From a virus: DNA of 45,444 bases. How positions within the stretch are numbered: the first letter of the stretch is position 1; each line of letters begins with the position of its first letter. The stretch is taken from the IMG/VR virus record IMGVR_UViG_3300028030_000021, positions 1 through 45,444 of that record. One strand, given 5' to 3'. The notes beneath the pieces were generated by a model, which worked only from the letters and a program-made list of their open reading frames with translations, searched no databases and was not told the DNA's origin. Shown here in pieces: positions 4,252 through 39,637 of the stretch. A program made the translations under genes and the position numbers.

Positions 4252-4255
4252 TTTA

Positions 4256-4962: not shown

Positions 4963-4974
4963 AAACTCTCCTTA

Positions 4975-16132: not shown

Positions 16133-17932
16133 GTGCCAAACCCCAAACTTGATTTAATTTATAATCTTTACAAGCTCCCAGATAAATGGAAATCTGGTAT
16201 ACATTCTATTAGAGATCCTAAGACAAATAAAATAAAAGTGATTGATACCACTGTAGATCAGTATATCCATGCAAAGCCAGACCCTAAGGGTAAAAAGCCT
16301 AAGATTGTTGAAACAAAGCTTACAACGCCGCCGATAGAAGAATTTCCCTGGGTACAACATGATCCACCAAAGTCTGCCATTGGATATGCACCTATATCCA
16401 GGGCCATGGCAGAGGATTTGGACACTGCCACAGTAACGTGGTGCGTTATAGATATTGATGGAAATCCTAATATTGCTGATGGTCTATACAATGCTGTTTC
16501 CAGCATTGTTTCTAACATCAAAGCTGCCAATAATCAAAATATTCTGTATAATCCCTTACCAGTTAATATATTACCATCATACTCCCGCACAGGTGTACAT
16601 GTGGTCCTCTTTTTTAATAAGCCAATTCTCGTAAACCATGTAAGGGGTTACGTTGCTGTTGTAAAGCTTATTCTTGCTTATGGTTTGCGTAATTTTCATC
16701 TAAAATGCACCTCTCAGGGCTTTGAGTCTTTCAAATTTGATAAAGTGTTCCTGGATAACCCTGGCCTCAGAGTGCTTTTACCAAACCCAGCGGATTTTCC
16801 GGAGGAGCCTGTTATTATAAATATATCTAAGATTGTACCGGTACCGCCATGCATGCAGTCAGTCATTGATCTTGCGGATTCAATTAATATGCTTGATCAT
16901 GATGGAACATTACCAAGTATTATTAAAAAAGGTGAACGCAACAACACCACATATCAACTTACACTTTATCTTAGGTACTTTGGAGTAAAAAATCCTACGG
17001 CTCTTATTTATTATATTATGAAGGGATATAATGACGCTGGAAGAGACAAAACTATTAAAAGTGCTAATAAACAATATAAAAGATGCTTGGAAGAAGGAAG
17101 CGGAATTGGATTTGGATGTAAAAGATGCCCATCTGATAGAAAGGAAAATTGTAAAATAGGTGGTGCTGTGTCTCAGGCCAAGGTAATAGATACCTTGGAA
17201 AAATTCAAACTTAAAATTGAGATTGAAAAAGGCACCAAAAATGAAGCGTATATTTTAACCTTTCTCGATGCTATCGAGTATCGATTTAACTTCAAGGAAC
17301 TTTCCAGTTGGCATACAGTTAAATCCAAATTGATTCAATCGGGCGCTGGTGTTGATGAAATCAGAAAGATTGACAAAAAATTATGGGGAGAAATGTGGGA
17401 TTTTTTATTAGAAAGTGCCGAAGTGAAGCGCACAGACAATCCAACATATTTGATGGTAAGAAATCACATTATTAATAGCATACACACTGCGGTAAAGGAT
17501 CCGGCTGTTCTTTTAAGGAGTAAAGATAAGTTCATCGGGTTTTTTGACAATAGCTTTCATGTTTCTATTGATAAATTGGTATATTCCAGCAAAAAGATGT
17601 ATAAGCCACAGGATGTGGCAACTGCACTTAAGATTTATTTTGATGTGGAGCCGACACCTTATACTGGTGTATATAAAATAAAATCAGATGAACTCGTGCC
17701 GCCTTTGGAAGTGGATGCCAAGGACAATTTACTTGCATCCGGAAAGCAGGTTTCTTATGATGATATCAGAAAAGGATTCCAGTTTATGGGTGCGGAATAT
17801 TGTACGACTATAAACGGACGACTTTATCTTATTCCATCGGAACTGATTCAGGAGGATAAGGGCTTGCGGACAATAGTAAAGGAAGAGATCCTGAAAAAAA
17901 GACGGAGTATCAAGAGAAATCGTGATTTTTAA
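16133..17932 (+). CDS. AEP-type primase / primase-polymerase
   Basis: A 599-residue protein, GTG start preceded by AAAGGAG. Residues 103-111 (WCVIDIDGN) give the archaeo-eukaryotic primase metal-binding D-x-D (Asp107, Asp109). Residues 149-158 (SYSRTGVHVV) give the second AEP motif with His156. The third acidic residue is not assigned. A Cys cluster near 325-337 (GCKRCPSDRKENC) may bind zinc, and the C-terminal half is probably a PriCT-like or accessory domain. It should make primers, and possibly extend DNA, at the phage fork. It heads the replication operon. AEP-type enzymes also occur in known 2-aminoadenine phages such as S-2L. Confidence 0.75.
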   Translation: MPNPKLDLIYNLYKLPDKWKSGIHSIRDPKTNKIKVIDTTVDQYIHAKPDPKGKKPKIVETKLTTPPIEEFPWVQHDPPKSAIGYAPISRAMAEDLDTATVTWCVIDIDGNPNIADGLYNAVSSIVSNIKAANNQNILYNPLPVNILPSYSRTGVHVVLFFNKPILVNHVRGYVAVVKLILAYGLRNFHLKCTSQGFESFKFDKVFLDNPGLRVLLPNPADFPEEPVIINISKIVPVPPCMQSVIDLADSINMLDHDGTLPSIIKKGERNNTTYQLTLYLRYFGVKNPTALIYYIMKGYNDAGRDKTIKSANKQYKRCLEEGSGIGFGCKRCPSDRKENCKIGGAVSQAKVIDTLEKFKLKIEIEKGTKNEAYILTFLDAIEYRFNFKELSSWHTVKSKLIQSGAGVDEIRKIDKKLWGEMWDFLLESAEVKRTDNPTYLMVRNHIINSIHTAVKDPAVLLRSKDKFIGFFDNSFHVSIDKLVYSSKKMYKPQDVATALKIYFDVEPTPYTGVYKIKSDELVPPLEVDAKDNLLASGKQVSYDDIRKGFQFMGAEYCTTINGRLYLIPSELIQEDKGLRTIVKEEILKKRRSIKRNRDF

Positions 17933-21114: not shown

Positions 21115-22116
21115 GTGAACGTTAAGGTGATCATAGGCTGCCCTGGTGCAGGAAAGAGCACATATCTGGCCAGGGCAGCCAACCGGCTTGATCCCAAGAA
21201 AACTATAATAGTATCTTTTTCAAGAAAGGCTGCAAAAAGCATCAACAATAAACTTGGAAAAGAATATAGGGCTTCAACCATACATAGTTATTGTTGCAGG
21301 GCATCAGGTATAAGACCTGAAGACATTATAACAGACTATGATATATCAAAAGAAGCTATGGAGGTATACAACCATGCATGTAACATAACTGAAGAGATGA
21401 TAACTGAAGAAAGCATTATTGAAGCATGTTTGCATAAAGGGTATTACAACATTGATGAAATCACAGATGAAATAAGCAAATACATACAATATAAGGAGGA
21501 CCACGTACTTTATGACTTTAATGATATGTTAAAAGTGTTCACTCCATATAAGGTGCCGGAAAACTTGCTTATAGATGAGGCCCAGGACTTATATCCGGCT
21601 TTAAAAGGGGTAATAGACAGGCTCATAAAAGCCGGACTTAAGAATTTGTGGCTTGTTGGAGATCCGGACCAGTGCATATACCAATTCAACGGATCAGATC
21701 CAAAGATTATGACTTCATATGGTGGAGAAATCAAATATCTGGATCAATCACACAGATGCCCAGAAGAGGTAGTGAAATTTGCTAAACAAATCTTGCCGCA
21801 TGCAAGATTTAAACCTACAGATAATAAAGGGGAGGTGATATATACAGATAAGATCCCAAAAGATGCAGAAGTTGTTCTTGTAAGAACCAAGTATGTGCAG
21901 GTAAATAGTGATAAGACTATGACTATGCACAAAGCAAAGGGACTTCAATGGAACAGAGTTGCAATATATGATGACATAGGGAGTACAAAAGTAAACGTTA
22001 ATAACGAAGAAGAGAAACGATTAATGTATACTGCTATTACAAGAAGCCGTGATGTGGTATATATTGTGAAAGGAAACTATGATTATTTATATCGATACAG
22101 AAACGACTGGCGTTAA
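21115..22116 (+). CDS. Small UvrD/Rep-type SF1 helicase
   Basis: A 333-residue superfamily 1A helicase. Walker A GCPGAGKST is at 8-16, motif II LLIDEAQDL, motif III VGDPDQCIYQFNGS, motif IV QSHRCP, motif V TMHKAKGL and motif VI LMYTAITRSRD. It is about half the length of UvrD and lacks large 1B/2B inserts, as in several phage Dda-like helicases. A 3'-5' or 5'-3' direction cannot be read from sequence. Start GTG 21115 follows an in-frame stop and has no clear ribosome binding site. It overlaps the polymerase gene by 38 bp. Confidence 0.85.
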   Translation: MNVKVIIGCPGAGKSTYLARAANRLDPKKTIIVSFSRKAAKSINNKLGKEYRASTIHSYCCRASGIRPEDIITDYDISKEAMEVYNHACNITEEMITEESIIEACLHKGYYNIDEITDEISKYIQYKEDHVLYDFNDMLKVFTPYKVPENLLIDEAQDLYPALKGVIDRLIKAGLKNLWLVGDPDQCIYQFNGSDPKIMTSYGGEIKYLDQSHRCPEEVVKFAKQILPHARFKPTDNKGEVIYTDKIPKDAEVVLVRTKYVQVNSDKTMTMHKAKGLQWNRVAIYDDIGSTKVNVNNEEEKRLMYTAITRSRDVVYIVKGNYDYLYRYRNDWR

Positions 22117-23806
22117 TTTGTTCACTGGTGATAAGATATTCGGTATAAGCTGGGCATTGGGTGATACTGAACCCAGGTACATTGATGTGCGAAATCAGGA
22201 TATTGCACCATTTAAACGAGACCTTAATAAAGCAGATCTGGTGGTCGCACATAATGTAAAGTTTGATGCTCATGCTCTTTATCAAATAGGCATAGACCTT
22301 ATCCATTATAACTTGGATTGCACAATGGTGCGTGCTCAGCTTCTTGATGAGCACAAGTTCAATTATGACCTGGATAGTCTGACCGGTGAAAAGTTGGACA
22401 TTATAGATGATCTGGCGGACATGTTTGGGGGCAAGGCCACCAAGAATGTACAGATGAAAAATCTGCATAAAGTATCGCCAGAATTTGTGGCCAGGTATGC
22501 CAAGCAGGATATTGTTGCACTCCGCAAGCTTTATAAGGAACAAGAGGAGCAGGAATTTCCGCCTGTATATGAGCTTGAGCGGAAAGTAATCAAGGTGCTG
22601 ATCCAGATGGAAAGAAGGGGTATCAGGGTAGATACCGGCAAAATTGATGAGACTATTTATTCTGTCAAAAAGATGATAGATGCCAAGCAAAAGGAGCTTG
22701 ATAGCATTGCCGGAAAGCATCTTAATGTAAATTCTACTCCTCAGATGCGGGGATTTCTGGTAAAGAAAAGGCTCAAGAGCGGGAAATTTGAGCTTGTAGA
22801 TGGCACTATAGCGGGGGCCACCAAGGCTGATGCTGCGTCTCTTGATGCTGATACCCTCAAGCAAATGACATATCCGCCGGCAAAGCTGATATTGGATATC
22901 AGAAGGTATAAAAAGATCCTTGATACTTTTTTGGTGTCTCAGATTCAGGGGCATTTGGTAAATGGACGTGTACATCCCAATTTCAATCAGACCAGGGTGG
23001 TAACAGGCAGGCTTTCATGCAACAGTCCAAATTTGCAGGCTATTCCCAAAAGGGATCCTGAAATGAAGAAGTTGCTCCGGAGCTTGTTTATTCCAGAAGA
23101 GGGCGCAAAGCTTCTGAGGTGTGATTATGAGCAGAGCGATGTGAGAGGGTTTGCACATTATATATCGCTCAGGGATCCTGACCATCCTATTAAAAAGGCA
23201 TATCAAAAGGACCCGTACACTGATTTTCACACTTTGGTTGCTGAAATGATGGACATTCCCAGGGACCCTAACCCAGAAACAGGTAATGCTAAGCAACTTA
23301 ACCTTGCTCAGATTTTTGGTATGGGTGCAGGAAAGCTTGCACAAACCATGGGGCTTAATTACACCATAAATGAAGAAGGCTTTCTGGTGCCAGGAGAAGA
23401 GGCTCAAAGGTTATTTGATTTATATCACGAGACCATACCAGGAGTGGGTAACATGTCTAAAAAAGCTGCGCACCGTGCAAGGCTCAGGGGATATGTAATA
23501 TCTATCCTGGGAAGGTACCTCAGGTTTCCGGATAAAAGATTCTGTCATAAGGCAGCTGGATACCTGTATCAAGCATGGACAGCGGATATCATAAAAGCAG
23601 CTATGGTAAGCACCTATAAAGTGCAGCCTCTCCATTTATCGGTGCACGATGAGCTTATATTTTCAGTATATGATATGGAGCTTATCAGCGTGATCAAGCA
23701 CAAAATGGAAAGTGTGCTGGATGGAATATCTGATATCCCAATTCGTACTGTACCAGAAATAGGCGACAATTGGGCATCTACTAAACCAATAACCGAAGGT
23801 TATTGA
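22079..23806 (+). CDS. Family A DNA polymerase with 3'-5' exonuclease (DpoZ candidate)
   Basis: A 575-residue Pol I-type polymerase without the 5' nuclease domain. Exo motifs: Asp6/Glu8 in IDTETTG, AHNVKFDAHAL and YAKQDIVAL. Polymerase motif A has Asp349 in RCDYEQSDVR. Motif B is AKQLNLAQIFGMG with Lys405 and Leu409 at the position of E. coli Phe762. Motif C is VHDE with Asp524. A start at 22079 has AAAGGA. In 2-aminoadenine phages such as phiVC8 a family A polymerase (DpoZ) is the partner of PurZ; the purZ-mazZ-datZ cassette just downstream makes the same role likely here. Confidence 0.9.
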   Translation: MIIYIDTETTGVNLFTGDKIFGISWALGDTEPRYIDVRNQDIAPFKRDLNKADLVVAHNVKFDAHALYQIGIDLIHYNLDCTMVRAQLLDEHKFNYDLDSLTGEKLDIIDDLADMFGGKATKNVQMKNLHKVSPEFVARYAKQDIVALRKLYKEQEEQEFPPVYELERKVIKVLIQMERRGIRVDTGKIDETIYSVKKMIDAKQKELDSIAGKHLNVNSTPQMRGFLVKKRLKSGKFELVDGTIAGATKADAASLDADTLKQMTYPPAKLILDIRRYKKILDTFLVSQIQGHLVNGRVHPNFNQTRVVTGRLSCNSPNLQAIPKRDPEMKKLLRSLFIPEEGAKLLRCDYEQSDVRGFAHYISLRDPDHPIKKAYQKDPYTDFHTLVAEMMDIPRDPNPETGNAKQLNLAQIFGMGAGKLAQTMGLNYTINEEGFLVPGEEAQRLFDLYHETIPGVGNMSKKAAHRARLRGYVISILGRYLRFPDKRFCHKAAGYLYQAWTADIIKAAMVSTYKVQPLHLSVHDELIFSVYDMELISVIKHKMESVLDGISDIPIRTVPEIGDNWASTKPITEGY

Positions 23807-23845: not shown

Positions 23846-24220
23846 ATGAATCAAGCAATACTTATTGGAAACCTTGGAAATGACCCAGAACTATCATACA
23901 GCAGAAACGGTGACCCATATACCAAATTTAACATAGCCACCAATGAAAGAGATGGCAAGACCAACTGGCACCGCATCATATGTTTTGGTAAGACTGCTGA
24001 AAACTGTGAAAGGTACCTCAAAAAAGGTAGCAAAGTAGCTGTGTTGGGTAGAATTGAGTATGGCCAGTATGAAGACAGAGATGGTATAACCAGATATACC
24101 ACGGACATCATTGCATTTAACGTGGAATTTTTAGACACCAAAACCGATAACAATAATAAGCATATTCCACCAACAAGATATAAAAAGAGGTTTGACGATG
24201 AATCCGATATCCCATTTTAA
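23846..24220 (+). CDS. ssb: Single-stranded DNA-binding protein
   Basis: A 124-residue OB-fold SSB. The N terminus (MNQAILIGNLGNDPEL) and the KTNWHRIICFGKTAENC and KKGSKVAVLGRIEYGQYED segments are diagnostic, and the C terminus is the canonical acidic DESDIPF. The ATG at 23846 with AAAGGAG is preferred to GTG 23816, which would add a lysine-rich run. It protects replication intermediates and recruits partners through the tip. Confidence 0.93.
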   Translation: MNQAILIGNLGNDPELSYSRNGDPYTKFNIATNERDGKTNWHRIICFGKTAENCERYLKKGSKVAVLGRIEYGQYEDRDGITRYTTDIIAFNVEFLDTKTDNNNKHIPPTRYKKRFDDESDIPF

Positions 24221-24506
24221 ACAATGCAGCACCTCTGAATGCCACAACAGAGCTGTAGCTAAGTCAACGCTTACTGGCCAGTTTTATTGTATAAGATGCG
24301 CCATACAAACTACTGTTAATATTGGACCAGATGCAGTGGAAACTTTACCCGATGCAGTGTGGCCATGGAATGACACTATAACATGCAGGTCATGTGGCAG
24401 GTTGGTATCATTGCAATTGCTGCATCGAAATAACACCTGTCCATTTTGTGCAAAAGAAGCCATTAAACTAAATGTAGAATACTTAGAAGGAGTTGGACAT
24501 GATTGA
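24198..24506 (+). CDS. Double zinc-ribbon protein upstream of PurZ
   Basis: A 102-residue protein with four Cys pairs: CSTSEC, CIRC, CRSCG and CPFC, forming two likely zinc ribbons. It starts at ATG 24198 inside the SSB gene and ends inside the PurZ gene (8-base overlap with ATG 24499). No homologue was recognised. Its coupling to the Z cassette suggests it may take part in nucleotide or DNA handling there. Confidence 0.65.
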   Translation: MNPISHFKQCSTSECHNRAVAKSTLTGQFYCIRCAIQTTVNIGPDAVETLPDAVWPWNDTITCRSCGRLVSLQLLHRNNTCPFCAKEAIKLNVEYLEGVGHD

Positions 24507-25443
24507 TCCCGAAGTACACATAATTTGTGGAATGCAATTTGGAAGCGAAGGAAAACGCCTATTCCTGGATGTATATTCCAGGTATTTTGAGCCTGATGTC
24601 ATTGTAACGAATGCCTATCCTAATTCTGGTGGATATGATGGTAAAGGCAAAAAATGGTCAGCCATCCCATGTAGTTACCATGCAACAATAATGATATCGC
24701 CTGGATCTGCCATCAATATGGCAGCATTGAGAAGAGAAGGACACGGAAAAGAGGTACTTATCCATAAGAACGCTGCAGTGGTAAATAGTCATGCCTTGGA
24801 AGCTGAAAAGGAACTTGTCAGGATTGGGTCCACCATGACAGGGGGAATGGAAGCTGTAGTAACTAAAATGCGAAGAAATAGTGGTATAAAATGCACCGCT
24901 GGGCAGTGGCATTTAGAAGGAGTAATCAATAATGATGAATGGTTCGATAGGCTTTTATCAGCTAAAAGAATCCTGGTATTTGTTGCCCAGGGGCATAGCC
25001 TATCACTTAATTTTGGGATGTGGCCACATTGCACATCCAGGAATACCTCACCCCAGCAGGCTCTTGCAGATGCAGGCATCCCTATTCAGTGGGTAAAGCG
25101 AATAATAGGCTGTGCTCGTACATACCCTATCAGAGTTGCTAATAGATATGATGATAACGGCAATATGATAGGGTGGTCAGGCCCATGTTATCCGGATCAG
25201 AAGGAGATCACCTGGGAAGATATAGGAGTGCCACCTGAATATACCAGTATCAGCAAAAAGAAACGTAGAGTATTTACGTTTTCTGTGAAGCAATATAAGG
25301 AAGCTTTGCTTACCAATGGCATCACTGATGTTTTTCTTAATTTTATGAATTATGATCCTGATTTTGATGTTCCTGAAGAAGTATCATGGTGGGGTTGGGG
25401 ACCAAAATTGGAAGATATTGAATGGTACCCCACAAGAAATTAA
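24499..25443 (+). CDS. purZ: PurZ, adenylosuccinate-synthetase-like enzyme for 2-aminoadenine
   Basis: A 314-residue PurA relative. The glycine-rich loop reads QFGSEGK (residues 13-19) where PurA has QWGDEGK: the catalytic Asp is Ser16, the known mark of PurZ, leaving room for the guanine 2-amino group. VAQGHSLSLNFGMWPHCTSRN (162-182) corresponds to the PurA GAQG...TSSN segment. The expected reaction is dGMP + Asp + ATP (or dATP) to 2-amino-2'-deoxyadenylosuccinate monophosphate, which host PurB cleaves to dZMP. GGAG precedes ATG 24499. The mazZ and datZ genes follow directly. It is shorter than cellular PurA (about 430 aa), as other PurZ are. Confidence 0.9.
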   Translation: MIDPEVHIICGMQFGSEGKRLFLDVYSRYFEPDVIVTNAYPNSGGYDGKGKKWSAIPCSYHATIMISPGSAINMAALRREGHGKEVLIHKNAAVVNSHALEAEKELVRIGSTMTGGMEAVVTKMRRNSGIKCTAGQWHLEGVINNDEWFDRLLSAKRILVFVAQGHSLSLNFGMWPHCTSRNTSPQQALADAGIPIQWVKRIIGCARTYPIRVANRYDDNGNMIGWSGPCYPDQKEITWEDIGVPPEYTSISKKKRRVFTFSVKQYKEALLTNGITDVFLNFMNYDPDFDVPEEVSWWGWGPKLEDIEWYPTRN

Positions 25444-25451
25444 TTTGTCCG

Positions 25452-25745
25452 ATGATTAAAATAAATATAGAGCACCCCACTACCATGGCAGCCATTACGG
25501 TGTGGGGTGCCAAAGGCCAAATTGCTATTTTACAAGAGGAATGTGCTGAACTTATATCCGCTACTGCTCGATTTAACAGGGAAAGAACAGGTACGGATCC
25601 TGTTGCAGAAGAGGTGGCGGACGTTATCGTTTCACTCATGTCAGTAATCAATGTCCTGGACATCGAAGAACAAGTTAAATTACATATGAACCACAAAATC
25701 AAACGACTTGAAAGGAGAATTAATGAAATATCCAGCACCGTTTAA
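25452..25745 (+). CDS. mazZ: MazZ, MazG-like dGTP pyrophosphohydrolase
   Basis: A 97-residue all-alpha NTP pyrophosphatase of the MazG type. The metal ligands are in E29-E30-x-x-E33 (EECAE) and E54-x-x-D57 (EVAD). In 2-aminoadenine phages MazZ hydrolyses dGTP to dGMP, the PurZ substrate, and can also remove dATP. It lies between purZ and datZ, 8 bases after the purZ stop and overlapping datZ by 23 bp. A start at 25422 inside purZ is possible; ATG 25452 is preferred because the family begins near this point. No clear ribosome binding site was seen, so translation may be coupled. Confidence 0.85.
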   Translation: MIKINIEHPTTMAAITVWGAKGQIAILQEECAELISATARFNRERTGTDPVAEEVADVIVSLMSVINVLDIEEQVKLHMNHKIKRLERRINEISSTV

Positions 25746-26148
25746 AGATAATGAAGCTTTAAGGATGCAATATATATCTAGATGGGGCATTATATCTATG
25801 AACCGTCAACAATCTGTAGCAGAGCATTGCTACAACGCTATGGTTTATGTTACCAAAATCTGTAAACTGGTAGGCAAATCACCGGAAAAGTATGTGATGT
25901 ACTTGCTTTTTCATGAACTTGATGAAGCATATACTGGAGATATCCCATCACCGCTTAAAGATAAAGAGCCTATTTATTACGGCTGCCCCATATGTAAACT
26001 GGCGGATATGGTTGAAGCATATGTATATCTTAACAATCATTGTAATGATACGTCTGAAATAAGACTATGGGTAAGAAACCGGCTTGAAGAAAAAATGAAA
26101 CCGCTTCTTAAAATGCTCAATCTTAAACTTGAGGACATAACCAAATGA
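25723..26148 (+). CDS. datZ: DatZ-like HD-domain dATP triphosphohydrolase
   Basis: A 141-residue YfbR-like HD phosphohydrolase. Arg20-Trp21 match the YfbR Arg-Trp pair that selects deoxynucleotides, His35 lies in VAEHC, the metal doublet is His64-Glu65 (LLFHELDEAYTGD), with Glu68, Asp73 and Asp95 (KLADMVEA) as further catalytic or ligand candidates. The canonical doublet is His-Asp, so Glu65 is unusual. DatZ removes dATP so that dZTP can be incorporated. ATG 25723 follows AAAGGAG. It overlaps the DnaQ-like gene by ATGA. Because of Glu65, activity and substrate need testing. Confidence 0.85.
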   Translation: MKYPAPFKDNEALRMQYISRWGIISMNRQQSVAEHCYNAMVYVTKICKLVGKSPEKYVMYLLFHELDEAYTGDIPSPLKDKEPIYYGCPICKLADMVEAYVYLNNHCNDTSEIRLWVRNRLEEKMKPLLKMLNLKLEDITK

Positions 26149-26732
26149 ACAAATACCTATTTGTAGATACAGAAACCACAGGGTTTAATCCAAGCATTCA
26201 CACGGTGCACCAGGTGGCAGGTATTATTTCCATAGATGGGAAAGAGGTTGATGAGTTCAATTTTGAAATGCGACCACATCCAGATAAGCAAATAGAAGAA
26301 AAGGCCCTGGCGGTTTCAGGACTCAAAATATCTGACGTTATTTCACGAGACCTTACATCTGGCCAGGCATGCACAGAATTTCGGCTGATATTGGAGCAGC
26401 ATGTTGATAAATATAATAAGGCAGATAAATTCATCCTTGTGGCTTATAATGCTTCATTTGATGCAAGTTTTTTGAATGCCTGGTTCAAATCCCATGGTAA
26501 CGACTTCTTTTTTGGTCTGGTTCATGGTGGTGCTTATCTGGATCCGCTACAGTTGGCACTATTCCTGGAGATAAAAGAAAAGAAACGCATATTTCTGCCA
26601 AATCGAAAGCTTGAAACTGTAGCCAGTACCCTGGGGATCAAGCTTGATAACGCACATGATGCTCTGGCAGATATCAGAGCCACAAAGCAAGTGTTATCAG
26701 AACTCTGGAAGAGGTTATTCAAAAATGAGTGA
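26145..26732 (+). CDS. DnaQ-like DEDDh 3'-5' exonuclease
   Basis: A 195-residue proofreading-type exonuclease. Exo I has Asp8/Glu10 in FVDTETTG, Exo II an Asp in AYNASFDASFL, and Exo III His and Asp in NAHDALADI, which is the DEDDh layout of the DNA polymerase III epsilon subunit. It is an additional exonuclease beside that built into the polymerase. Its ATG overlaps the datZ stop (ATGA). It may serve in repair or recombination, or in clearing DNA with A in place of Z; the latter is speculation. Confidence 0.88.
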   Translation: MNKYLFVDTETTGFNPSIHTVHQVAGIISIDGKEVDEFNFEMRPHPDKQIEEKALAVSGLKISDVISRDLTSGQACTEFRLILEQHVDKYNKADKFILVAYNASFDASFLNAWFKSHGNDFFFGLVHGGAYLDPLQLALFLEIKEKKRIFLPNRKLETVASTLGIKLDNAHDALADIRATKQVLSELWKRLFKNE

Positions 26733-30304: not shown

Positions 30305-31915
30305 TTATGCCGATGTGTAACTTGGATCGGCTTTTGGTGACAAGGTTACAGTCAAGTTTTCATCTTGGATCGTAAAATCCATATCTCCAGGTTCCACATA
30401 ACCTGGTCTGCCCCAGGCTATTGTACAATCAATCGGTGTTCCTGGAGTATGACCATCAACGTCATAGGAGCCATAAGCAATCGTTATTGCGTCGCTCCCC
30501 GTAATAGACACATCTTCTTGATCTGTGCCGTCTTCGTCCTGAAGCGGCACAGCATCATGCGTCCCGAAAGTGTCTTTATGGTAGATGCTGAAATGTCCTC
30601 CAACCAGAATGGACGGAGAACTTATAGTCAGGGCAACGATAGTCGGCCACTGGCGTACAGTACCACTGTGGTCAACAAGACGGAGGTCATTACGTTGTGC
30701 AGCGGGGTAATTAAGCAAATATGAATATACTGTGAAGACATCCCCACTGAATTCTGTAAGGATATTGTGTTTATCTCCCCGAATTGCGTCCCCAGTATTG
30801 TCACTGTTTATGTTGGTAGGTTGTCTGAGAAGGTAGTTAATCTTCTCGTGTATTGTCTGATGGGTTTTATGGTCTCCGTCTATATGACCGTCAAAATCGT
30901 AGGTTGTACCGTCAACATCACCTTGGTACAACCCGTCCGAATCTACATAGTATTTAATGTTTTGATAGTCAGCCCCATTAGCAATCTCTGTATCAGTGTG
31001 ATAAGGCGTCCCCGTTGACGGGTCGGCCAGTTTTGGGTCAATGGCGTTATTTGCTGAAACGGGGTATATTTCAGCGTACTGGAGATCGTGTGCTTCGAAA
31101 ACAATCGTTTTTCCAGGCTCGGCACACCGAGTGTACCATGTTCCCCTCTTATCATCTCCATCAGTATCATGAATAAGGACTAACTGGTTAATGTAACCAG
31201 TCATAACTGCCTCATTAGGGGCATTCATCTCTGGATCATTATAATACCAGAATGTCATTTGATCGGTCGAAGCATGAAGATTGCCTGTTGACCTAAGCAA
31301 CGCATACGCTTTAGTGTAGCTGGATGTTTCTGTTTCTCTGATTTCCAAGGCAGAATCCCTAATAGCATTTAGAGTATCTGAGTCGTGAGGCTCCCAGCCG
31401 TCCTTATTTGCCAGGCTTTTGGCCCTTGGCTCGATAGAGGTGAATACAGACGGATACTTGTCCAAGTCCGTATTATACCATTCGTCAACGCACCACGAGG
31501 CGAAAACCAGCCCTTGAACCCCATCAACAAAGCTCAACCCGTTGGCCTCTAAAAACTGATAAGTCTTTTTAAAAGCAAGGACGTTGATATCAGCCCCTGC
31601 GCTCTCGTCTGCGGAAGCATTGTCAACGTCCGTACAAGTAATGCTATGGGCTGACACCGAGGTAACATCGCCTCGGTAGCCCTCATTTGTACTGTTTGAC
31701 GTGTGACTGAGGGTTATTCTATCCCCAACAACAATTCCCCTGTTTACAATACCTCCGTTTTCCGAGGAGGCTGTAAAATCGGTAGATGTAGAGTTGATTG
31801 TGGTTGTTCCATTCCCATTATTGGTAATACTGATATCAGTACCGCCTTTATCAGCTATATGGAATTTTACATTTGTACCAAGAACAAGACTTGATTTGCT
31901 CGTTATTTTTGCCAT
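30305..31915 (-). CDS. Large distal tail structural protein
   Basis: A 536-residue protein. Residues about 25-110 form a Thr/Ser-rich beta domain with NSTSTDFTASS, resembling the insert of the tail tube protein. The rest contains DEWYNTDLDKYPSVFT and LHASTDQMTFWYYNDP, without enzymatic motifs. The last residues PKADPSYTSA closely match the C terminus of the next gene (KPDPSYS), so the two may share an attachment or assembly tail. A tail fibre or neck-whisker-type component is plausible. Confidence 0.55.
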   Translation of the reverse strand: MAKITSKSSLVLGTNVKFHIADKGGTDISITNNGNGTTTINSTSTDFTASSENGGIVNRGIVVGDRITLSHTSNSTNEGYRGDVTSVSAHSITCTDVDNASADESAGADINVLAFKKTYQFLEANGLSFVDGVQGLVFASWCVDEWYNTDLDKYPSVFTSIEPRAKSLANKDGWEPHDSDTLNAIRDSALEIRETETSSYTKAYALLRSTGNLHASTDQMTFWYYNDPEMNAPNEAVMTGYINQLVLIHDTDGDDKRGTWYTRCAEPGKTIVFEAHDLQYAEIYPVSANNAIDPKLADPSTGTPYHTDTEIANGADYQNIKYYVDSDGLYQGDVDGTTYDFDGHIDGDHKTHQTIHEKINYLLRQPTNINSDNTGDAIRGDKHNILTEFSGDVFTVYSYLLNYPAAQRNDLRLVDHSGTVRQWPTIVALTISSPSILVGGHFSIYHKDTFGTHDAVPLQDEDGTDQEDVSITGSDAITIAYGSYDVDGHTPGTPIDCTIAWGRPGYVEPGDMDFTIQDENLTVTLSPKADPSYTSA

Positions 31916-31927
31916 CTAAAAATCTCC

Positions 31928-33505
31928 TTAACTATAACTCGGATCGGGCTTAGCAGTGACTGCTATGGTAGAATTGTTTGTATCCAAGGTGAAATTTACG
32001 GGATCAATTACATACCCAGGACACACAAACAATGCTCTTGCCGGATCATCAGACACATCATAGGTATATTCATATTCCCCACCTGTAACAGACGCTTCAT
32101 GGTCGAGGGTATATGCTCCTTGAACCACTCTGGCTTCTGTGTTTTCTGGCAACCCTGTAAAAGTTTTTGTTCGTTTGTTGTAAAGAATGGTATTTCCTCC
32201 GCCTGATTCATTTATCTTTGTCGGGTCAATCTCTGTTCCGTCCTCCTGATAAATCGTCAGAGTGCCTGCGCTATAATGCGTTATTTCCGAGGTGCAGTTA
32301 TCGAATGTATAGTTGCTCAGGTGAACCGTGTCGTCTCCAAGAGTAACGCCATTAAATGAGTAGAAGAGTTTGATATTTTTAGGCGTATTAAGAGATGAAA
32401 TCATGAAATATGTGTTGACGTTAAAAATACAGTCATCCATATTGGCGCCGTTTGCTGTGACCTCATCGCAGAAATTGAACGTCGCTCGGATATAATCAGC
32501 AGAACAGAATTTGAGGCTATGTGCCCCGTAAAGTGTAGATTGATTAACCAGGAACGTGCCTGCAACGGTATGGAAATCCATATCCCATGACACTAAATCT
32601 AGGTCTGCCACCCTGGTAGCATGGTTTGTCCACTTGAGCGTTGTATCGTCGCCGGTGTTGACGAACCCATGAAATTCGTCGCCTGTCGAACTGCTTACAT
32701 TAGAGCCGTCGTAATAGCTATGCGAGGCAAAGATAAACAGCCGTTTGTCTTCCAGCATATAAACAGATTGACCGGTATCGCCCAGGGAGAATTTACCGTT
32801 GAGGAAAAATACTCCATTGTACTCTTCAACGATACCCATACGACGAGATTTGTCTTCTGTATAATCAAGTATCCCTGTTATATCTATCGGGTCGCTTTCC
32901 GTTCCGCCTGCAAACTTGACCCCAGGGCCTTTGTGGAAAATATCTATCCAAAATTCGGGAGAATTTACTCCCGTTAGATTCGAACTAAACTTTGTAATGA
33001 AACCAACAGCCGTCACATCGGACAGGTCAACTGTCCCATTTGTGTTTATTGGAGTCATGCTGGATGGTTTGAACACGTGTCGAGTCCAGCCCGACCGTAG
33101 TGTATCTATCCCTCCCACATAATACTCATTATAGTTACAGGAAGAATCATTCAGAGAATCGCTTGATGTATTTTTAGAAAGAGTCCCAGTATAAATTCTG
33201 AGTCTCAACCCTCCGTTGGCAATCGTGTCAAGATTGCCGAAAATTTTATCCGAGATGTTATACCAACACCACAGATAGTCAGATGATAAATCCTGGCTGG
33301 ATGTAAACTCTATAGCAATTCCCGTAACCCAGGCAGCAGCAAACCCAGGCTTGTAAGCCCCCGCCTGAGAACCCTGCTTGACGATGCTTGTGCTTACAGA
33401 CACATCGCCCGTTGTCCCTCCTATTTCCCATAGGCGATCATCAAGGTTTGATGCCTCGAAATCATCAAGAACGGTTAATTCTTCTATAATGGTAGGAGTT
33501 GCCAT
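31928..33505 (-). CDS. Large beta-rich virion protein
   Basis: A 525-residue protein, all-beta by sequence, with an N-terminal segment (VLDDFEASNLDDRLWEIGG) typical of carbohydrate-binding or concanavalin-like domains, a middle DFHTVAGTFLVNQSTLYGAH that may be part of a helix-like repeat, and C-terminal KPDPSYS shared with the downstream gene. It is likely displayed on the virion and may bind host surface glycans. This is inference from composition. Confidence 0.55.
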   Translation of the reverse strand: MATPTIIEELTVLDDFEASNLDDRLWEIGGTTGDVSVSTSIVKQGSQAGAYKPGFAAAWVTGIAIEFTSSQDLSSDYLWCWYNISDKIFGNLDTIANGGLRLRIYTGTLSKNTSSDSLNDSSCNYNEYYVGGIDTLRSGWTRHVFKPSSMTPINTNGTVDLSDVTAVGFITKFSSNLTGVNSPEFWIDIFHKGPGVKFAGGTESDPIDITGILDYTEDKSRRMGIVEEYNGVFFLNGKFSLGDTGQSVYMLEDKRLFIFASHSYYDGSNVSSSTGDEFHGFVNTGDDTTLKWTNHATRVADLDLVSWDMDFHTVAGTFLVNQSTLYGAHSLKFCSADYIRATFNFCDEVTANGANMDDCIFNVNTYFMISSLNTPKNIKLFYSFNGVTLGDDTVHLSNYTFDNCTSEITHYSAGTLTIYQEDGTEIDPTKINESGGGNTILYNKRTKTFTGLPENTEARVVQGAYTLDHEASVTGGEYEYTYDVSDDPARALFVCPGYVIDPVNFTLDTNNSTIAVTAKPDPSYS

Positions 33506-33506
33506 A

Positions 33507-33932
33507 TTACTCCTCGCCTGCTATCTTTGGCCCGCCTTCTACCTCGAAAATTAAGGCTATTCCCATACGAGTGTATGCGAACAGCTTTTCTTTGGATATT
33601 GTTCCGTTCGCTATCTCTGTACCAACATCAGAGATAGCTTGTTGTATCTGGCCTTGTATGATTTCAGCGTCCTTATTTTCTCGGAGGCAGAGGTATTTCA
33701 CAAATTCAGGCATGAAATCCTGTGTCGAGACAGAAATTACCTCATCATCGTATACAACGTGACCATCTTCGTCTGTCCCGTAGAGTTTCCCTGTGGCGTT
33801 TACAGCAAATTTGTCTGGATCGGATGTTGTATTTTTCTTACCTTGAGTAAATGCAAACTGCATTACGTGGAGTTTATCCAGCGTAATTGCTGGAATGGTT
33901 TTTGCTTCCGAGCTATCTATTTTGATTGCCAT
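33507..33932 (-). CDS. Uncharacterised structural-region protein
   Basis: A 141-residue protein (IPAITLDKLHVMQFAFTQGKK; later VYDDEVISVSTQDFMPEFV) with no signal peptide. It shares a one-base overlap with the lipoprotein gene upstream (TAATG). No family recognised. It separates the exported genes from the large distal virion proteins and may be an adaptor or chaperone. Confidence 0.5.
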   Translation of the reverse strand: MAIKIDSSEAKTIPAITLDKLHVMQFAFTQGKKNTTSDPDKFAVNATGKLYGTDEDGHVVYDDEVISVSTQDFMPEFVKYLCLRENKDAEIIQGQIQQAISDVGTEIANGTISKEKLFAYTRMGIALIFEVEGGPKIAGEE

Positions 33933-34219
33933 TATTTCACCGCCTTTGCTGTTTCGATTAAAGCCTGGATTAAGGCTTTTAAGAAAACCTCTGTGTTGTT
34001 AGGCCCGTTTCCAAGGCCACCAGTCTGTACATCAACTGCTCCTGTCTTTGGATCAACATGAAATACAAGACCGTCCTGAACTTCCCTGTTCGAATCCACC
34101 TTAATCTCAGTTGTTGAATTAGCTGATGTAAATGTGTATCTGTATGTTGCTCCGCCGGAAAATGAAGCGCATCCAGAAATCAGCACACAAATACTCAGCA
34201 AGCTTAACAATCTCATCAT
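33932..34219 (-). CDS. Lipoprotein
   Basis: A 95-residue protein with a lipoprotein signal: a basic start, hydrophobic core and LISG-Cys17 lipobox. The mature part is about 79 residues, Gly/Thr/Asn-rich. An outer-membrane spanin role is possible given its location in the late operon, but it is not Pro-rich and no partner overlaps it. It starts with ATGA overlap with the upstream exported protein. Confidence 0.75.
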   Translation of the reverse strand: MMRLLSLLSICVLISGCASFSGGATYRYTFTSANSTTEIKVDSNREVQDGLVFHVDPKTGAVDVQTGGLGNGPNNTEVFLKALIQALIETAKAVK

Positions 34220-34635
34220 TGTGTCACCTCAATCTGGATATCAGGAGTAGAAACAAAACGGATATGAAGAACTGTTGCCGGCTCCCAGTCTTGTGTTGCA
34301 GGGGGCGAAGCCCATTCGCTTTTTTGCTCTGCGAGGTCGACTGCCCGAACCGTGCATTCAGCCTTGCCTCTTGTGACTGGGACTTTGCCAGACCACTCAA
34401 ACGTCTTAAAGTAGTGGCGGTTTGTGTCAGATATCTTTAGGTTTGGGTCATCCACAGGAACCCGAACAATACTGGCATTGTCGCCAGGCACACAAGATAT
34501 TTCGTACCTTGCAATATCTGGAGGGAGATCGTGTTCCCAGGCAAGGCCGATTAGCCTGCTTTCCACGCTTGCATCTGCGGCGAAAACCATAGAAACTTGA
34601 ATTAAACTGAGTAAAAGAAACCATATAATTCTCAT
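34216..34635 (-). CDS. Exported protein, fibronectin-III-like
   Basis: A 139-residue protein with a Sec signal peptide ending near VFAADA (residue 20-22). The mature part is beta-rich with IARYEISCVPGD and WSGKVPVTRGKAECTVRAVD, which resembles a fibronectin type III-like fold with a possible disulfide. It is linked by ATGA to the beta-helix gene upstream and to the lipoprotein downstream. Confidence 0.65.
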   Translation of the reverse strand: MRIIWFLLLSLIQVSMVFAADASVESRLIGLAWEHDLPPDIARYEISCVPGDNASIVRVPVDDPNLKISDTNRHYFKTFEWSGKVPVTRGKAECTVRAVDLAEQKSEWASPPATQDWEPATVLHIRFVSTPDIQIEVTQ

Positions 34636-36281
34636 TTATCTACCTCCTTAATAAACATTCTTGAATCGCCAATATCAGGTCTGATTCTAAATTCATCTGC
34701 ACCAATGTCTGGCGTATCCACAATAGAGTCGCCGTCGATATCTTTAGCCCAATTAGGCCAAGGCTTGTGAATATCTGAGATTTTGACACCCGCATTACGG
34801 GCTGGAGATTGACGGGATATGTGATATCCCGTCAGAAGAGGGTCATCAGTTTTAGAATTTACGTCGTGTGAGGTTGCTGATTTCCATCCATTGAAATCGT
34901 GATATATGTGGTAATTGCTTTCGAATTTACTACTTCCATCAGGATAGTATAAATTATAATTTATATCATTATTGCCATCGTTTGAGTCAGTAAACCTATA
35001 AGCAATATGCTCACCAGTTGGATTGTACGATAAATTGTTCAAAAACCTAATATTAGCGATATTATGGCCTAAGTTAACATTATATTCGTAACCGCTAATA
35101 AAATTATTGACTATAGTGGTTGTTAGGTGAATATGGTCAAGAAAAAATCCCCAATCACCTTTATTCCCTTGCAACACATTGTATGCCACAAAGGATTCTG
35201 CGTGATTGCCATTGTTCGCCTCTTGCAAGGCTATACCATACGTTTCTACATCATTTAGGATGTTTCGTTTAATTTTTAAGCCCCTATAATGCGAATTAGG
35301 AGCACAATAACATACGATCCCTTTATAGCTTTTATCGGCATAATTTTCTACGATTACTACATTATCACCATTTTGTACTGAAACCAATTCTCCGTCTGCC
35401 AAAGAACCTGCTTCACTCCATTTGTAATTCGCATTATTTGTATAAAATGTGTTATAAAATTTATTATGTTTGATTGATACATTCCGGCTACGCTCAGGGC
35501 CGTCACCATGAGACGCAATAGTGACGTCTTGGGCTACACGGTTAAACACACACCGTTCCACTACAATATCGTTATTGTCAGTATTCCGTGCTTTAAGATG
35601 TATTCCTGCGGATGCGATATCATAAAAATAGCAATTTTTTACTTGTATATCACTTACTCCCGATGTTGAATCACTATGTACTCCATACACAACATTTCTA
35701 AACGATAAACCGCTGAAATGAAAATGTGAATGCCCCTGCAAATCAAACACAGCTCTCACCATTAACCGTTTAACATCATGATTATTAGGCGTTCCGCTTG
35801 ACGGTCTATAGTAAGTATCCGCTCCGTCATAATACCATACACCATCGTTCAGTGCCGTATTGGAGGCTTTCGCCTGATAAATACTGTCCTCTAAAAGAAA
35901 ACCTGTGTATACAGGACTTGTATATCTCCCATCTCCTAAAGATGTCCAAGAGCTAAAGCTGTCAACAACAGACATCTTAGGGCTTACTCCAAATAACGGC
36001 TTGATAATTATTGGGTGCTCAGCCGTTCCGTTTACGGTGACTCTGCTACGAGTGTTGGTGTCAGAACAAATGTAGACTGTGTCACCAGCCTGAACACCAC
36101 CAGAACCGTAAACAATGTAAACTAATTCTGCCCATGCACCAGACTGGCCATTAGCTGAAGCGCATTCGTGACTTGTACCGTCACCATTATGTGAACAGTT
36201 GGCATTTACATACCAATCAACCCCAAAAACAGAAGAAACTCCAAACACCAACATACATACTATTGCATATACGATTTTCAT
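34632..36281 (-). CDS. Exported right-handed beta-helix protein 1
   Basis: A 549-residue protein with a Sec signal peptide (residues 1-20). The mature N terminus has a Cys pair around NGDGT (Cys29 and Cys40), then about 350 residues of parallel beta-helix coils with HFHFSGLSFRNVVYGV, IQVKNCYF, DIVVERCVF and similar repeats, and a C-terminal PDIGADEF block. The fold is that of pectate lyase-like enzymes and tail spikes. Unlike normal spikes it carries an export signal. It is the downstream paralogue of the 36453 and 38222 genes. Catalytic residues are not clear; polysaccharide binding or cleavage is possible. Confidence 0.8.
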   Translation of the reverse strand: MKIVYAIVCMLVFGVSSVFGVDWYVNANCSHNGDGTSHECASANGQSGAWAELVYIVYGSGGVQAGDTVYICSDTNTRSRVTVNGTAEHPIIIKPLFGVSPKMSVVDSFSSWTSLGDGRYTSPVYTGFLLEDSIYQAKASNTALNDGVWYYDGADTYYRPSSGTPNNHDVKRLMVRAVFDLQGHSHFHFSGLSFRNVVYGVHSDSTSGVSDIQVKNCYFYDIASAGIHLKARNTDNNDIVVERCVFNRVAQDVTIASHGDGPERSRNVSIKHNKFYNTFYTNNANYKWSEAGSLADGELVSVQNGDNVVIVENYADKSYKGIVCYCAPNSHYRGLKIKRNILNDVETYGIALQEANNGNHAESFVAYNVLQGNKGDWGFFLDHIHLTTTIVNNFISGYEYNVNLGHNIANIRFLNNLSYNPTGEHIAYRFTDSNDGNNDINYNLYYPDGSSKFESNYHIYHDFNGWKSATSHDVNSKTDDPLLTGYHISRQSPARNAGVKISDIHKPWPNWAKDIDGDSIVDTPDIGADEFRIRPDIGDSRMFIKEVDK

Positions 36282-36449
36282 TTATTTCTCCCTTTTGCCA
36301 AGCTGATACCCAATAGCTGTGCCTGTGGCGATCGAGCCTAAAGATAAAATAATATCTCGAATTAGTGGCGCTGCTTCCTTGGTTGGAGGGTGCCAAAGCA
36401 CGCCGAGTCCTAACAATGTCATGGCTAATATCACAAAATGCTTGTCCAT
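36282..36449 (-). CDS. Small membrane protein, holin candidate
   Basis: A 55-residue protein from ATG 36449, AGGAG upstream. Two hydrophobic segments (FVILAMTLLGLGVLW and DIILSLGSIATGTAIGY) are separated by a short charged turn and followed by a basic end (KREK). Size, two segments and late-operon location fit a holin; a simple membrane anchor protein is the alternative. Its TAA is immediately followed by the next ATG. Confidence 0.65.
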   Translation of the reverse strand: MDKHFVILAMTLLGLGVLWHPPTKEAAPLIRDIILSLGSIATGTAIGYQLGKREK

Positions 36450-36452
36450 CAT

Positions 36453-38225
36453 TCACTCCTGTATTCCTATTGTGGAAAATGTAGATAGGGGTTCAATTGT
36501 GTTTATTCGTGACGAACCTCTGACAGGTCGTGCCATGAATTCATCAGCACCAATGTCTGGATTATTAATCACATATTGCAGGTCAATATCTCTTGCTGGG
36601 GAAGATTGATCGTGAATACCAGATATTTGAACTCCTGCATTGACTGCTGGAGAAGTTTTTGCAATATGAAAACCTAAGAGCATAGGATTGTCTGTTGAAG
36701 CATGACCAGACAGATCGATCTCTTGCGACGTTGTGGTACTATGCCCAGGATGTTCAAAGCCATAAATCAAATTATTAGAGGAATCGCTAATTACTTGATC
36801 TTGTACATTACTATCAACTGCCAATCCACCAATAGCACCATTAGCCGCCGTTAAAAGATTGTTTTTTATAATATAAATATCATCATAATTCCGACTTGCT
36901 CTCACACATTGCCTTGTGTGATCCAAACTGTCAGGCACAAAATCAGGAAAATTGCCGCAATCAACAAAAGAATTGTTATAGACTGTTACAGTGTCACCCG
37001 AACCCGTATTTTTAGCAGATAACCGCACGCCCTGCCCAACATGAACACCTACATTGTAATAAAATGTATTGTTTTCGGAACTATGATCCATATATGCCCT
37101 GGCGGTATTCTCGGCTATATTGTGATGAACTTTGCTATGACTCGCCCCTTCATCTAAATAATAACAGGACCCGTCTGGCCAATACTCACCATAATGATAA
37201 TCAGCACAATAGTTGTGCATTATTTCTAAGCCCGGATCAGGCTTAGTAGAATAATGATTCGACCAGTAAACTCCTCCTACAGATCTGGTGTATCCGTTGT
37301 GAAAAAGATAATTACGAAGGATTTTACAATCTTCAAAAACTCCATTAAAATATATAGGCACACACAGTATGTTTGACAACACATTTGAATCGATTATTAA
37401 ATTACTACTTGGGCGTGTGTCTGTTCCTGCACTTTTGATTCCATAAAACAATTGATCGAAACTACAGCCAGATATATGAACTTTCGATATAGGATAAGTA
37501 TTGGAAGAAACGTAGATTCCTACATAACTTTTATAGAACCTTATATTTTTGATTTTTGCATTAGTGATATTACGCAACCGGATAGTTGTGTTCTGTGCAG
37601 TCTGAAAATGGATCTCTCCATAATACGTGAACGGGTTAATTGATGAGGGAGAATAAATATAGAACCCATTAGGGTTTTCGCCAGATAGTGATTGATAGTC
37701 CCACTCCCCCCACTCATCTAATGCTTGGTGGGCTCCACCATTATGATATTGTCGCTGTTTTCCTGGTGTCCAATCCGCACCAAGTCCCAGAATGAAAGGA
37801 GGATTGCTCGCATAAGAGCTATCAGTTACGCAAAACCACACGTTTGTGTCGTGTAGGGTGCAAGTAGGTGGTGAGCTTTGATAATCATAATAATTGATAA
37901 TTATAGGATCTGAACCTGAACCGTAGGCCCCAAAGATTAAGCCATCTCCATCGGCAATGATCCGTTGGTGAGTGATATTATGCTTTGAACTCCAATCATC
38001 TATTGTGCCTCGCTTCCAATAAACATGTGTATTGTCAGTCGTTATGACCCAATTAGTGGGTGCTGTGTTATAAGCTCCAACTCCTCCTTCAGAAGTTGAA
38101 CATGTTTGAGCAGTTCCGTCACCATTATATTCACAAGAAGGGTTGATAAACACATCTATTGCTTCTGCATTACTGCAAAAACAAAACAACACAAACAAAT
38201 AGGATAAAATTATAGAACGTTTCAT
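36453..38225 (-). CDS. Exported right-handed beta-helix protein 2
   Basis: A 590-residue protein, signal peptide ending after SNAEA (residue 22). The mature N terminus has a CEYNGDGTAQTC disulfide-type motif, then beta-helix repeats (IRLRNITNAKIKNIRFYK, KVHISGCSFDQLFYGI, NLIIDSNVL, VTVYNNSFVDC) and a C-terminal NPDIGADEF. It is a paralogue of the genes on either side, with low direct similarity outside the ends and repeats. Role in glycan recognition or degradation is inferred from fold only. Confidence 0.8.
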   Translation of the reverse strand: MKRSIILSYLFVLFCFCSNAEAIDVFINPSCEYNGDGTAQTCSTSEGGVGAYNTAPTNWVITTDNTHVYWKRGTIDDWSSKHNITHQRIIADGDGLIFGAYGSGSDPIIINYYDYQSSPPTCTLHDTNVWFCVTDSSYASNPPFILGLGADWTPGKQRQYHNGGAHQALDEWGEWDYQSLSGENPNGFYIYSPSSINPFTYYGEIHFQTAQNTTIRLRNITNAKIKNIRFYKSYVGIYVSSNTYPISKVHISGCSFDQLFYGIKSAGTDTRPSSNLIIDSNVLSNILCVPIYFNGVFEDCKILRNYLFHNGYTRSVGGVYWSNHYSTKPDPGLEIMHNYCADYHYGEYWPDGSCYYLDEGASHSKVHHNIAENTARAYMDHSSENNTFYYNVGVHVGQGVRLSAKNTGSGDTVTVYNNSFVDCGNFPDFVPDSLDHTRQCVRASRNYDDIYIIKNNLLTAANGAIGGLAVDSNVQDQVISDSSNNLIYGFEHPGHSTTTSQEIDLSGHASTDNPMLLGFHIAKTSPAVNAGVQISGIHDQSSPARDIDLQYVINNPDIGADEFMARPVRGSSRINTIEPLSTFSTIGIQE

Positions 38226-39637
38226 CTCGGAAGATCCTTTTCACGCCTTATTAAACCACTTTTAATTTTAGGAGGGATATGAAATTCATCACAGCCAATG
38301 TCCGGACTATTTACAATATATTGTAAATCTATATCGTTTTCAGGATAAGCCTTGTCATGGATACCGGAAATTGAAGTCCCTGAATTGATAGATGATGAAT
38401 GATAATTATCTATATGTCCATCTCCGTTCAAGAAAGGATTGCCTACAATCGAATGCGAGCCCATGCTTATGTTGTGCGTATTGTCCGACAAATTTCCAAA
38501 ATACAAATTGTAGTCATTGTCAATCGCTACATTTGACCACAATCCATAATCAGGGCTCCCGGCCATGATATTATTCTTAACCTCTATATTCGAAGAATCT
38601 CCAGATACATATATCCCATAACAACTATCTCCAGAGACATTGTCATAAAAGTTGAAAACTGTATTATTTATCACTCCAAGATCATGGCTTCTATTCGTTA
38701 CAGCAATCCCTCCACGATTAAGTCCGCTAACCATATTGTAACGAACGACTCCTGATGCGGAAGAAAGCCATATTCCATAATATCCATTCATGATACGATT
38801 ATGATGGATATTTTCGTCTGTTCCAGAAACATAAACAACATTGGAATGGGTAGTTTCTGTTCCGTAATTTTGACTTTTGAGCCAGTTGTATGAAATCGTT
38901 GCGTTATTCCCTTGTATAATAATACATTGTTTTGGTTCATAAAAACTACTTATGTCTATGTGGTTATACTTGATGATATAACCTGTATGACTGCCTGAGC
39001 ATTGAAGACCGTCCCCTCTTCCCGATGATCCGGAGTTTGTAATTCCAAAGATTGTATTATTTTCAAAGGTGAAATCGTTCCCTCGTTGATAAATCATATC
39101 GCCGGGGCCATTGTATATAACGGAATCCTTTATAGTATTGTGGTTCCCCCTTGAAATAATTAGGGATCTGGTATTATCCGTGCTCTGGAGGTCGTGGACT
39201 TCACAATGTATAACTTTATTGAAAGTGCCGTCTGTTTCGTCAGCAGCAGTTAAATATACATTTACATAATCGCTACCAAAAACCTCCAAATCCTTAATTA
39301 CCACATTGGTGGCGTGATGACCCGCCCCATCATACCACGCATAAGTCTTCAACGCAGCGTGATGACCGCTGAAGTCAATCTTGCCAACTCCGTCACCTGT
39401 AAGGGTTATGTTGCTATGTTGTATCCCGATATCATGAATAGGATAGAGCGTGTCACAAATATGAAGCGTGTCGCCATCTGACATATTATCCCAATTAATT
39501 CCTGTCCAGCCGTACCACGCATTATCGCAAGAAGTCCCGTCTTGCGATCCACTCCCTGTATTAGCCACATACCAATCACTTCCAAAAGCCGACAGATTAG
39601 TGAATAAGATTATAAAACAAAAACAAATAAAAAACAA
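38222..39637 (-). CDS. Exported right-handed beta-helix protein 3, with frameshifted signal peptide
   Basis: A 471-residue frame from TTG 39637. The beta-helix region (VVIKDLEVFGSDYVN, NTIKDSVIYNG, FTFENNTIFGI) ends in SPDIGCDEF. No ribosome binding site lies before TTG. The ATG with GAGG at 39657 begins MKSLFFICF but is knocked out of frame after nine residues by a tandem 11-base duplication (39625-39646). Removing one unit joins ATG to the same signal peptide and helix frame. So this may be an out-of-phase allele of a phase-variable gene, or initiation may be at TTG. The signal cleavage site would be near LSAFGSD. Confidence 0.75.
   Translation of the reverse strand: MFFICFCFIILFTNLSAFGSDWYVANTGSGSQDGTSCDNAWYGWTGINWDNMSDGDTLHICDTLYPIHDIGIQHSNITLTGDGVGKIDFSGHHAALKTYAWYDGAGHHATNVVIKDLEVFGSDYVNVYLTAADETDGTFNKVIHCEVHDLQSTDNTRSLIISRGNHNTIKDSVIYNGPGDMIYQRGNDFTFENNTIFGITNSGSSGRGDGLQCSGSHTGYIIKYNHIDISSFYEPKQCIIIQGNNATISYNWLKSQNYGTETTHSNVVYVSGTDENIHHNRIMNGYYGIWLSSASGVVRYNMVSGLNRGGIAVTNRSHDLGVINNTVFNFYDNVSGDSCYGIYVSGDSSNIEVKNNIMAGSPDYGLWSNVAIDNDYNLYFGNLSDNTHNISMGSHSIVGNPFLNGDGHIDNYHSSSINSGTSISGIHDKAYPENDIDLQYIVNSPDIGCDEFHIPPKIKSGLIRREKDLPR

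Follow-up and report, generated by a model that had tools for sequence, protein, structure and literature searches.

A 2-aminoadenine-type cassette with departures at catalytic positions of PurZ and DatZ in a tailed phage from IMG/VR

A contiguous set of purZ, mazZ and datZ homologues, accompanied by a DNA polymerase of the DpoZ type, was found in the tailed phage IMGVR_UViG_3300028030_000021, whose whole record of 45,444 nucleotides is the window analysed here. Judging from the sequence, these genes can be attributed to the Z cluster of the phiVC8/PMBT28 type, and the Z pathway is probably working in this phage, with locally remodelled active sites of PurZ and DatZ (a probability of roughly two in three). 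Since the gene identities, the gene order and the link to a DpoZ-type polymerase hold, the presence of 2-aminoadenine (Z) in the phage DNA is a reasonable and the leading reading, and one of a known kind. At the same time, the cassette departs at catalytic positions that do not vary among about 100 relatives, so that activity may not be read from family membership alone. The first-pass annotation of this DNA had already proposed a genome with 2-aminoadenine instead of adenine, and the enzyme identities, the gene order and the polymerase agree with this proposal, but the departures at the catalytic positions of PurZ and DatZ had been missed.

The cassette occupies positions 24499–26148, as had been annotated, and consists of three intact plus-strand ORFs, which overlap head to tail, have ordinary codon usage and give matches far above chance. 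The first of them, purZ (24499..25443; ATG at 24499, stop at 25443), encodes a 2-amino-adenylosuccinate synthase homologue of 314 aa; mazZ (25422..25745, with a second in-frame ATG at 25452) encodes a MazG-like pyrophosphohydrolase of the MazZ-1 type, and datZ (25723..26148, ATG at 25723) a compact HD-type dATP triphosphohydrolase homologue of 141 aa. The neighbouring genes, all on the plus strand, also overlap or nearly touch. The syntenic block begins with a UvrD/Dda-like helicase gene (21115..22116), found at the same position in the phages PMBT28 and SH-Ab 15497, and continues with the genes of the DpoZ-type family A DNA polymerase with a 3'-5' exonuclease (22079..23806) and a single-stranded DNA-binding protein (SSB; 23846..24220, over the cut-off of TIGR00621), and with a small Zn-ribbon-like ORF (24192..24506, a weak Pfam match below cut-off). 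The last two fill the 0.69 kb between the end of the polymerase gene at 23806 and the start of purZ, in accordance with the family A polymerase previously placed 0.7 kb upstream. Directly after datZ, a DnaQ-like 3'-5' exonuclease is encoded (26145..26732; PF00929, phrog_192).

The proteins of the phage were aligned with 98 other PurZ, 91 DatZ, 76 MazZ and 73 polymerases. The polymerase passes the NCBIfam model of DpoZ, NF038380, with 511 bits against a curated cut-off of 500, and its best PDB match is the phiVC8 DpoZ, 7pbk (E=1.5e-77, 265 bits, compared with 145 for Klenow). The clade of the phiVC8 DpoZ is marked by L455, F459 and G548, together with R161 and M165 in helix E2, Lys being allowed in place of R161 (PMC8599892). 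Equivalents of L455, F459, G548 and M165 are kept in the phage polymerase, which has Lys at the R161 position. As to the insertions, the polymerase has helix-O insertion 2 and a short insertion 3, but lacks insertion 1 along with its invariant Gly.

The MazZ protein matches the pyrophosphohydrolase family phrog_2245 (E=6e-19) and falls just below the cut-off of Pfam MazG. The motifs EExxE (E39–E43) and ExxD (E64–D67), noted at its initial recognition as a MazG-like protein, are present, and the metal ligands E35, E38, E50 and D53, as well as R83 (S-2L numbering), are all kept. The guanine-specificity positions I56 and D60 are occupied by Val and Ser, respectively, Ser74 standing at S-2L Asp60, which was named a guanine-specificity residue of the S-2L enzyme (PMC8342488).

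The product of purZ was described earlier as a PurA homologue with Ser in place of the catalytic Asp in the motif QFGSEGK, and this was confirmed, Ser16 being found where PurA has Asp13. It matches phrog_1211 (E=4.6e-51), and its best PDB match is the S-2L PurZ, 7odx (E=2e-47, 165 bits), followed by the phiVC8 PurZ with 145 bits, while PurZ0 and PurA give 39 or less. The score with the NCBI PurZ model NF038379, 205.6 bits, does not reach the curated cut-off of 300 bits, and the protein is therefore named here a divergent PurZ homologue. The same model gives 350 bits with PurZ of S-2L, 397 with that of phiVC8 and 422 with that of SH-Ab 15497, and 202–293 bits with four other divergent PurZ (among them L024 with 286, L089 with 265 and L121 with 202). 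The assignment of the protein to PurA was considered and rejected because of the PurZ-type Ser16 and of PurZ scores far above the PurA ones (206 bits with the PurZ model against 75 with the archaeal PurA model).

The dGMP pocket of PurZ is kept in the alignment, including S23, N49, G130, S131, T132, R146, Q190, C204, T205, R240 and V241 (S-2L numbering); the two pocket changes, A50S and Y203H, are both found in other PurZ, and the arginines R280 and R281 behind the aspartate loop are present. Structure prediction, suggested in the first-pass annotation as a check of the pocket, gave a confident model from a 70-sequence alignment (pLDDT 90.5, pTM 0.90) with the PurZ fold, matching solved PurZ with Z 40 and PurZ0 and archaeal PurA with Z 34–35. 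One of the least reliable regions of this model is the loop that lacks the active-site His (68 for residues 41–50 and 77 for residues 51–60).

It is the active site of PurZ that is most unusual. Gly45 (codon 24631–24633) stands at the position of S-2L H52 and Phe161 (codon 24979–24981) at that of Glu187, although all other PurZ have His and Glu at these positions (n=99 including that of the phage); the equivalent of T53, next after the lost His, is deleted. A compensating frameshift as the origin of the His loss was ruled out by reading the DNA. In the structure of the S-2L PurZ, these two residues, H52 and T53, are in contact with the energy donor at its triphosphate (PMC8342488). Altogether, of the 53 columns in which at least 95% of other PurZ agree, 44 are kept and nine are lost, which makes this protein the most deviant of 99 at near-invariant columns (the next one has 7 losses, the median being 0). 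The losses are D11G, T17E, G20R, H45G, the deletion of the following Thr, E161F, T250S, V251I and T252S, the changes in the aspartate loop, T to S and V to I, being conservative. The corresponding His of PurA, His41, is what we take to be an essential residue in the E. coli enzyme. The losses fall at 5 of the 12 conserved columns of the P-loop and the 40s loop against 4 of the 41 elsewhere (p=0.02, by a test picked post hoc).

Such clustering, with a kept pocket for the substrate base and changes at the phosphate-donor site from D11G to E161F, would also be expected if dGMP were still handled by the phage but the ATP-phosphate site of PurZ had been rebuilt for another phosphate donor, or if a different modified purine were made or incorporated. 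This seems highly improbable to us, as the polymerase retains the signature residues of DpoZ for Z, the aspartate-loop changes are conservative and a scan of neighbouring ORFs revealed no further gene for base modification.

The identification of the third protein as DatZ is supported by matches to the dATP triphosphohydrolase family phrog_7076 (E=5e-20) and to the S-2L DatZ, 6zpa, its best PDB match (E=2e-6), as well as by a model from a 70-sequence alignment (pLDDT 90.0, pTM 0.85; Z 15.8 to the S-2L DatZ). The first description of this protein as a YfbR-like HD hydrolase was right as to the enzyme family, but missed that the dyad reads His-Glu: Glu65 (codon 25915–25917) is located at S-2L D67, a position with Asp in all 91 other DatZ, so that HE is unique to this phage among 92 proteins. 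D67 is one of the four metal A ligands of the S-2L DatZ (PMC8065100), and the other three, H34, H66 and D119 (S-2L numbering), are kept, as are all the contacts to base, sugar and phosphate (R19, W20, I22, P79, K81 and K116). The related enzyme YfbR is inactivated by metal-ligand substitutions (PMC8177086).

The simultaneous disappearance of otherwise invariant catalytic residues from PurZ and DatZ, the changed specificity residue of MazZ, the loss of insertion 1 and its invariant Gly from the polymerase and the first rank of PurZ in deviance might indicate a decaying system, that is, a descendant of a Z phage in which the catalysis by PurZ and DatZ has been lost, the polymerase accepts dATP and the DNA is ordinary or slightly Z-substituted. 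We regard such decay as unlikely, though it deserves more credit than the other alternatives, because the ORFs are intact and overlapping, the folds are confident, most near-invariant columns and the whole dGMP pocket of PurZ are kept, and the losses are clustered. In a simple simulation of neutral decay by random point mutation, just 4.7% of the genes still contained no stop after nine conserved codons had been lost, indels and partial constraint being ignored. The stop-free ORFs and the clustered losses weakly favour remodelling under selection over drift, weakly because the clustering test was chosen post hoc and the simulation left out indels and partial constraint.

The odd residues could, in principle, also have come from errors of sequencing or assembly or from a minority variant of a canonical Z cassette, given that the phage belongs to a metagenome-like bin of 639 contigs and that Asp to Glu in DatZ takes one base change. 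This explanation is very doubtful, as the replacements of His by Gly, of Glu by Phe, of Thr by Glu and of Asp by Gly in PurZ each need at least two base changes and the deletion in PurZ is in-frame, the frame being open throughout.

Z phages are genetically and ecologically diverse and form at least seven groups (PMC12884076). PurZ is carried by 194 of 50,697 phage records, and 385 PurZ loci were confirmed in one IMG/VR scan. Z cassettes being so widespread, the novelty claimed in the first-pass annotation for the finding of one in this phage is weak. The order helicase, DpoZ, SSB, PurZ, MazZ-1 and DatZ is common to this phage and to Salmonella phage PMBT28, Klebsiella phage VLCpiS6a and Acinetobacter phage SH-Ab 15497; in contrast to the proteins described here, MazZ of these three has a DUF5664-like N-terminal fusion, and their PurZ (about 36% identity) and DatZ keep NAGHT and HD. 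Cyanophage S-2L also has contiguous purZ-mazZ-datZ with a short unfused MazZ-1, but it possesses a PrimPol and lacks DpoZ (PMC8342488), and its enzymes keep H52, T53, E187, D67 and D60, all of which are changed in our phage. The DpoZ of Vibrio phage phiVC8 belongs to the same clade as the polymerase considered here, and its PurZ (6fko/6tnh) has the same fold (Z 40), whereas phiVC8 has MazZ-2 and three DpoZ insertions instead of MazZ-1, no insertion 1 and a short insertion 3.

The uncultivated virus L024 (IMGVR_UViG_3300018063_000025) resembles our phage in the order of a Pam3-gp34-like gene, helicase, DpoZ, PurZ and DatZ, and the replacements of D by G and of T by E are common to the PurZ of both (39% identity). 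Its PurZ (3965–5005) is intact and has the His and Glu187, and its DatZ keeps HD, unlike the proteins of our phage; conversely, Gly-Val replaces the dGMP-binding S131-T132 (S131G, T132V), both of which are kept in our phage. With its own losses in L024, departures at conserved positions of PurZ are not restricted to this phage. A PurZ-like gene of another kind of location (L116, DJLZ01000001.1, 5001–6002) is situated about 314 kb into a 994-kb proteobacterial MAG contig and, hence, possibly belongs to a prophage or chromosome. Searches for close relatives gave none by megablast of the region against phages and none with PurZ alone or PolA alone against viral_contigs, and patterns for the N-terminus of the phage PurZ and for HE-type DatZ had zero hits in viral_contigs. 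The pattern GPCYPDQKE was found in two contigs, His being present in both. No other PurZ was detected at the cut-offs used in 186 relatives and 398 genomes of the phylum, and contigs with related capsids, possibly fragments, gave no PurZ match.

The record has a 145-bp direct terminal repeat, positions 1–145 being identical to 45300–45444, which shows that the assembly, about 45.3 kb long, is circular and complete. The phage encodes a terminase, a portal, a major head protein and a tape measure, as well as a tail protein of the GTA type. The GTA-like tail and the beta-helix noted at the first reading were both recovered, on the minus strand, as a GTA TIM-barrel-like domain (PF13547, E=3e-24) in the tail protein at 41842–45345 and as a right-handed beta-helix protein (PF13229) at 38222–39637. 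No Pfam or PHROG family was matched by the large ORFs at 30305–38225, and no Pfam, PHROG or NCBIfam family by a 599-aa protein at 16133–17932 (plus strand); by eye, DID and SRTGVH-like stretches of the latter recall archaeo-eukaryotic primase motifs, and it may be the phage primase.

The phage is contig C631 in a bin of 3.73 Mb, in which RpoB (L122, G000:C627), judged by eye, looks gammaproteobacterial. Another Z phage, phiVC8-like, is present in the same bin (L002, L123 and L124; G000:C103, 36,591 bp) and contains DpoZ, primase-helicase, PurZ, a MazZ-2-like ORF and DatZ, with canonical NAGHT and HD motifs; its PurZ shares 38% identity with that of our phage. The tetranucleotide CGCG does not occur in positions 1–45299 of our phage, against 29.5 occurrences expected from trinucleotide counts, whereas near-normal counts were obtained in the C103 phage (74 against 67.7 expected) and in sampled contigs of the bin (56 against 66.8), a contrast that makes it somewhat less certain that the bin is the true host. 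CGCG contains no A and would not be protected by Z; its avoidance would be consistent with restriction at a site left unmasked by Z, and a host restriction system may underlie it. However, CTAG, which contains A, is also scarce (11 against 53 expected), CCGG and GGCC show no strong depletion, and a general CGCG deficit is not seen in other Z-phage loci, so the absence of CGCG by itself is no evidence for Z.

In the working pathway that we favour, inferring each of its enzymatic steps as well as the presence of Z in the DNA, MazZ would convert dGTP into dGMP, PurZ would join dGMP and aspartate into a succinyl intermediate with energy from ATP or dATP, and host PurB and kinases would complete dZTP. 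DatZ would clear dATP, and the Z-preferring DpoZ would copy the genome with Z replacing A. With a remodelled phosphate-transfer site in PurZ and one remodelled metal ligand in DatZ, the activity would perhaps be lower or differently balanced; Arg20 of the P-loop or another side chain of PurZ might take over the phosphate contacts of the lost His.

In our opinion, the Z cassette as such is ordinary among Z phages, and the unusual part is the active sites. PurZ without the invariant His and Glu, together with the HE-type DatZ, may tentatively be regarded as an active Z branch with rewired phosphate-transfer and metal sites, or as one producing a related different base, a serious possibility but one that we would not yet prefer. 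If this branch is active, the adenylosuccinate synthetase superfamily can do without residues that are regarded as fixed, and its PurZ would be an example of synthesis of the adenylosuccinate type in which a His invariant elsewhere is missing, and a naturally occurring variant for studies of ZTGC-DNA. If it is inactive, this would be the rare case of a Z phage caught in the course of giving up Z, with the Z-type polymerase remaining.
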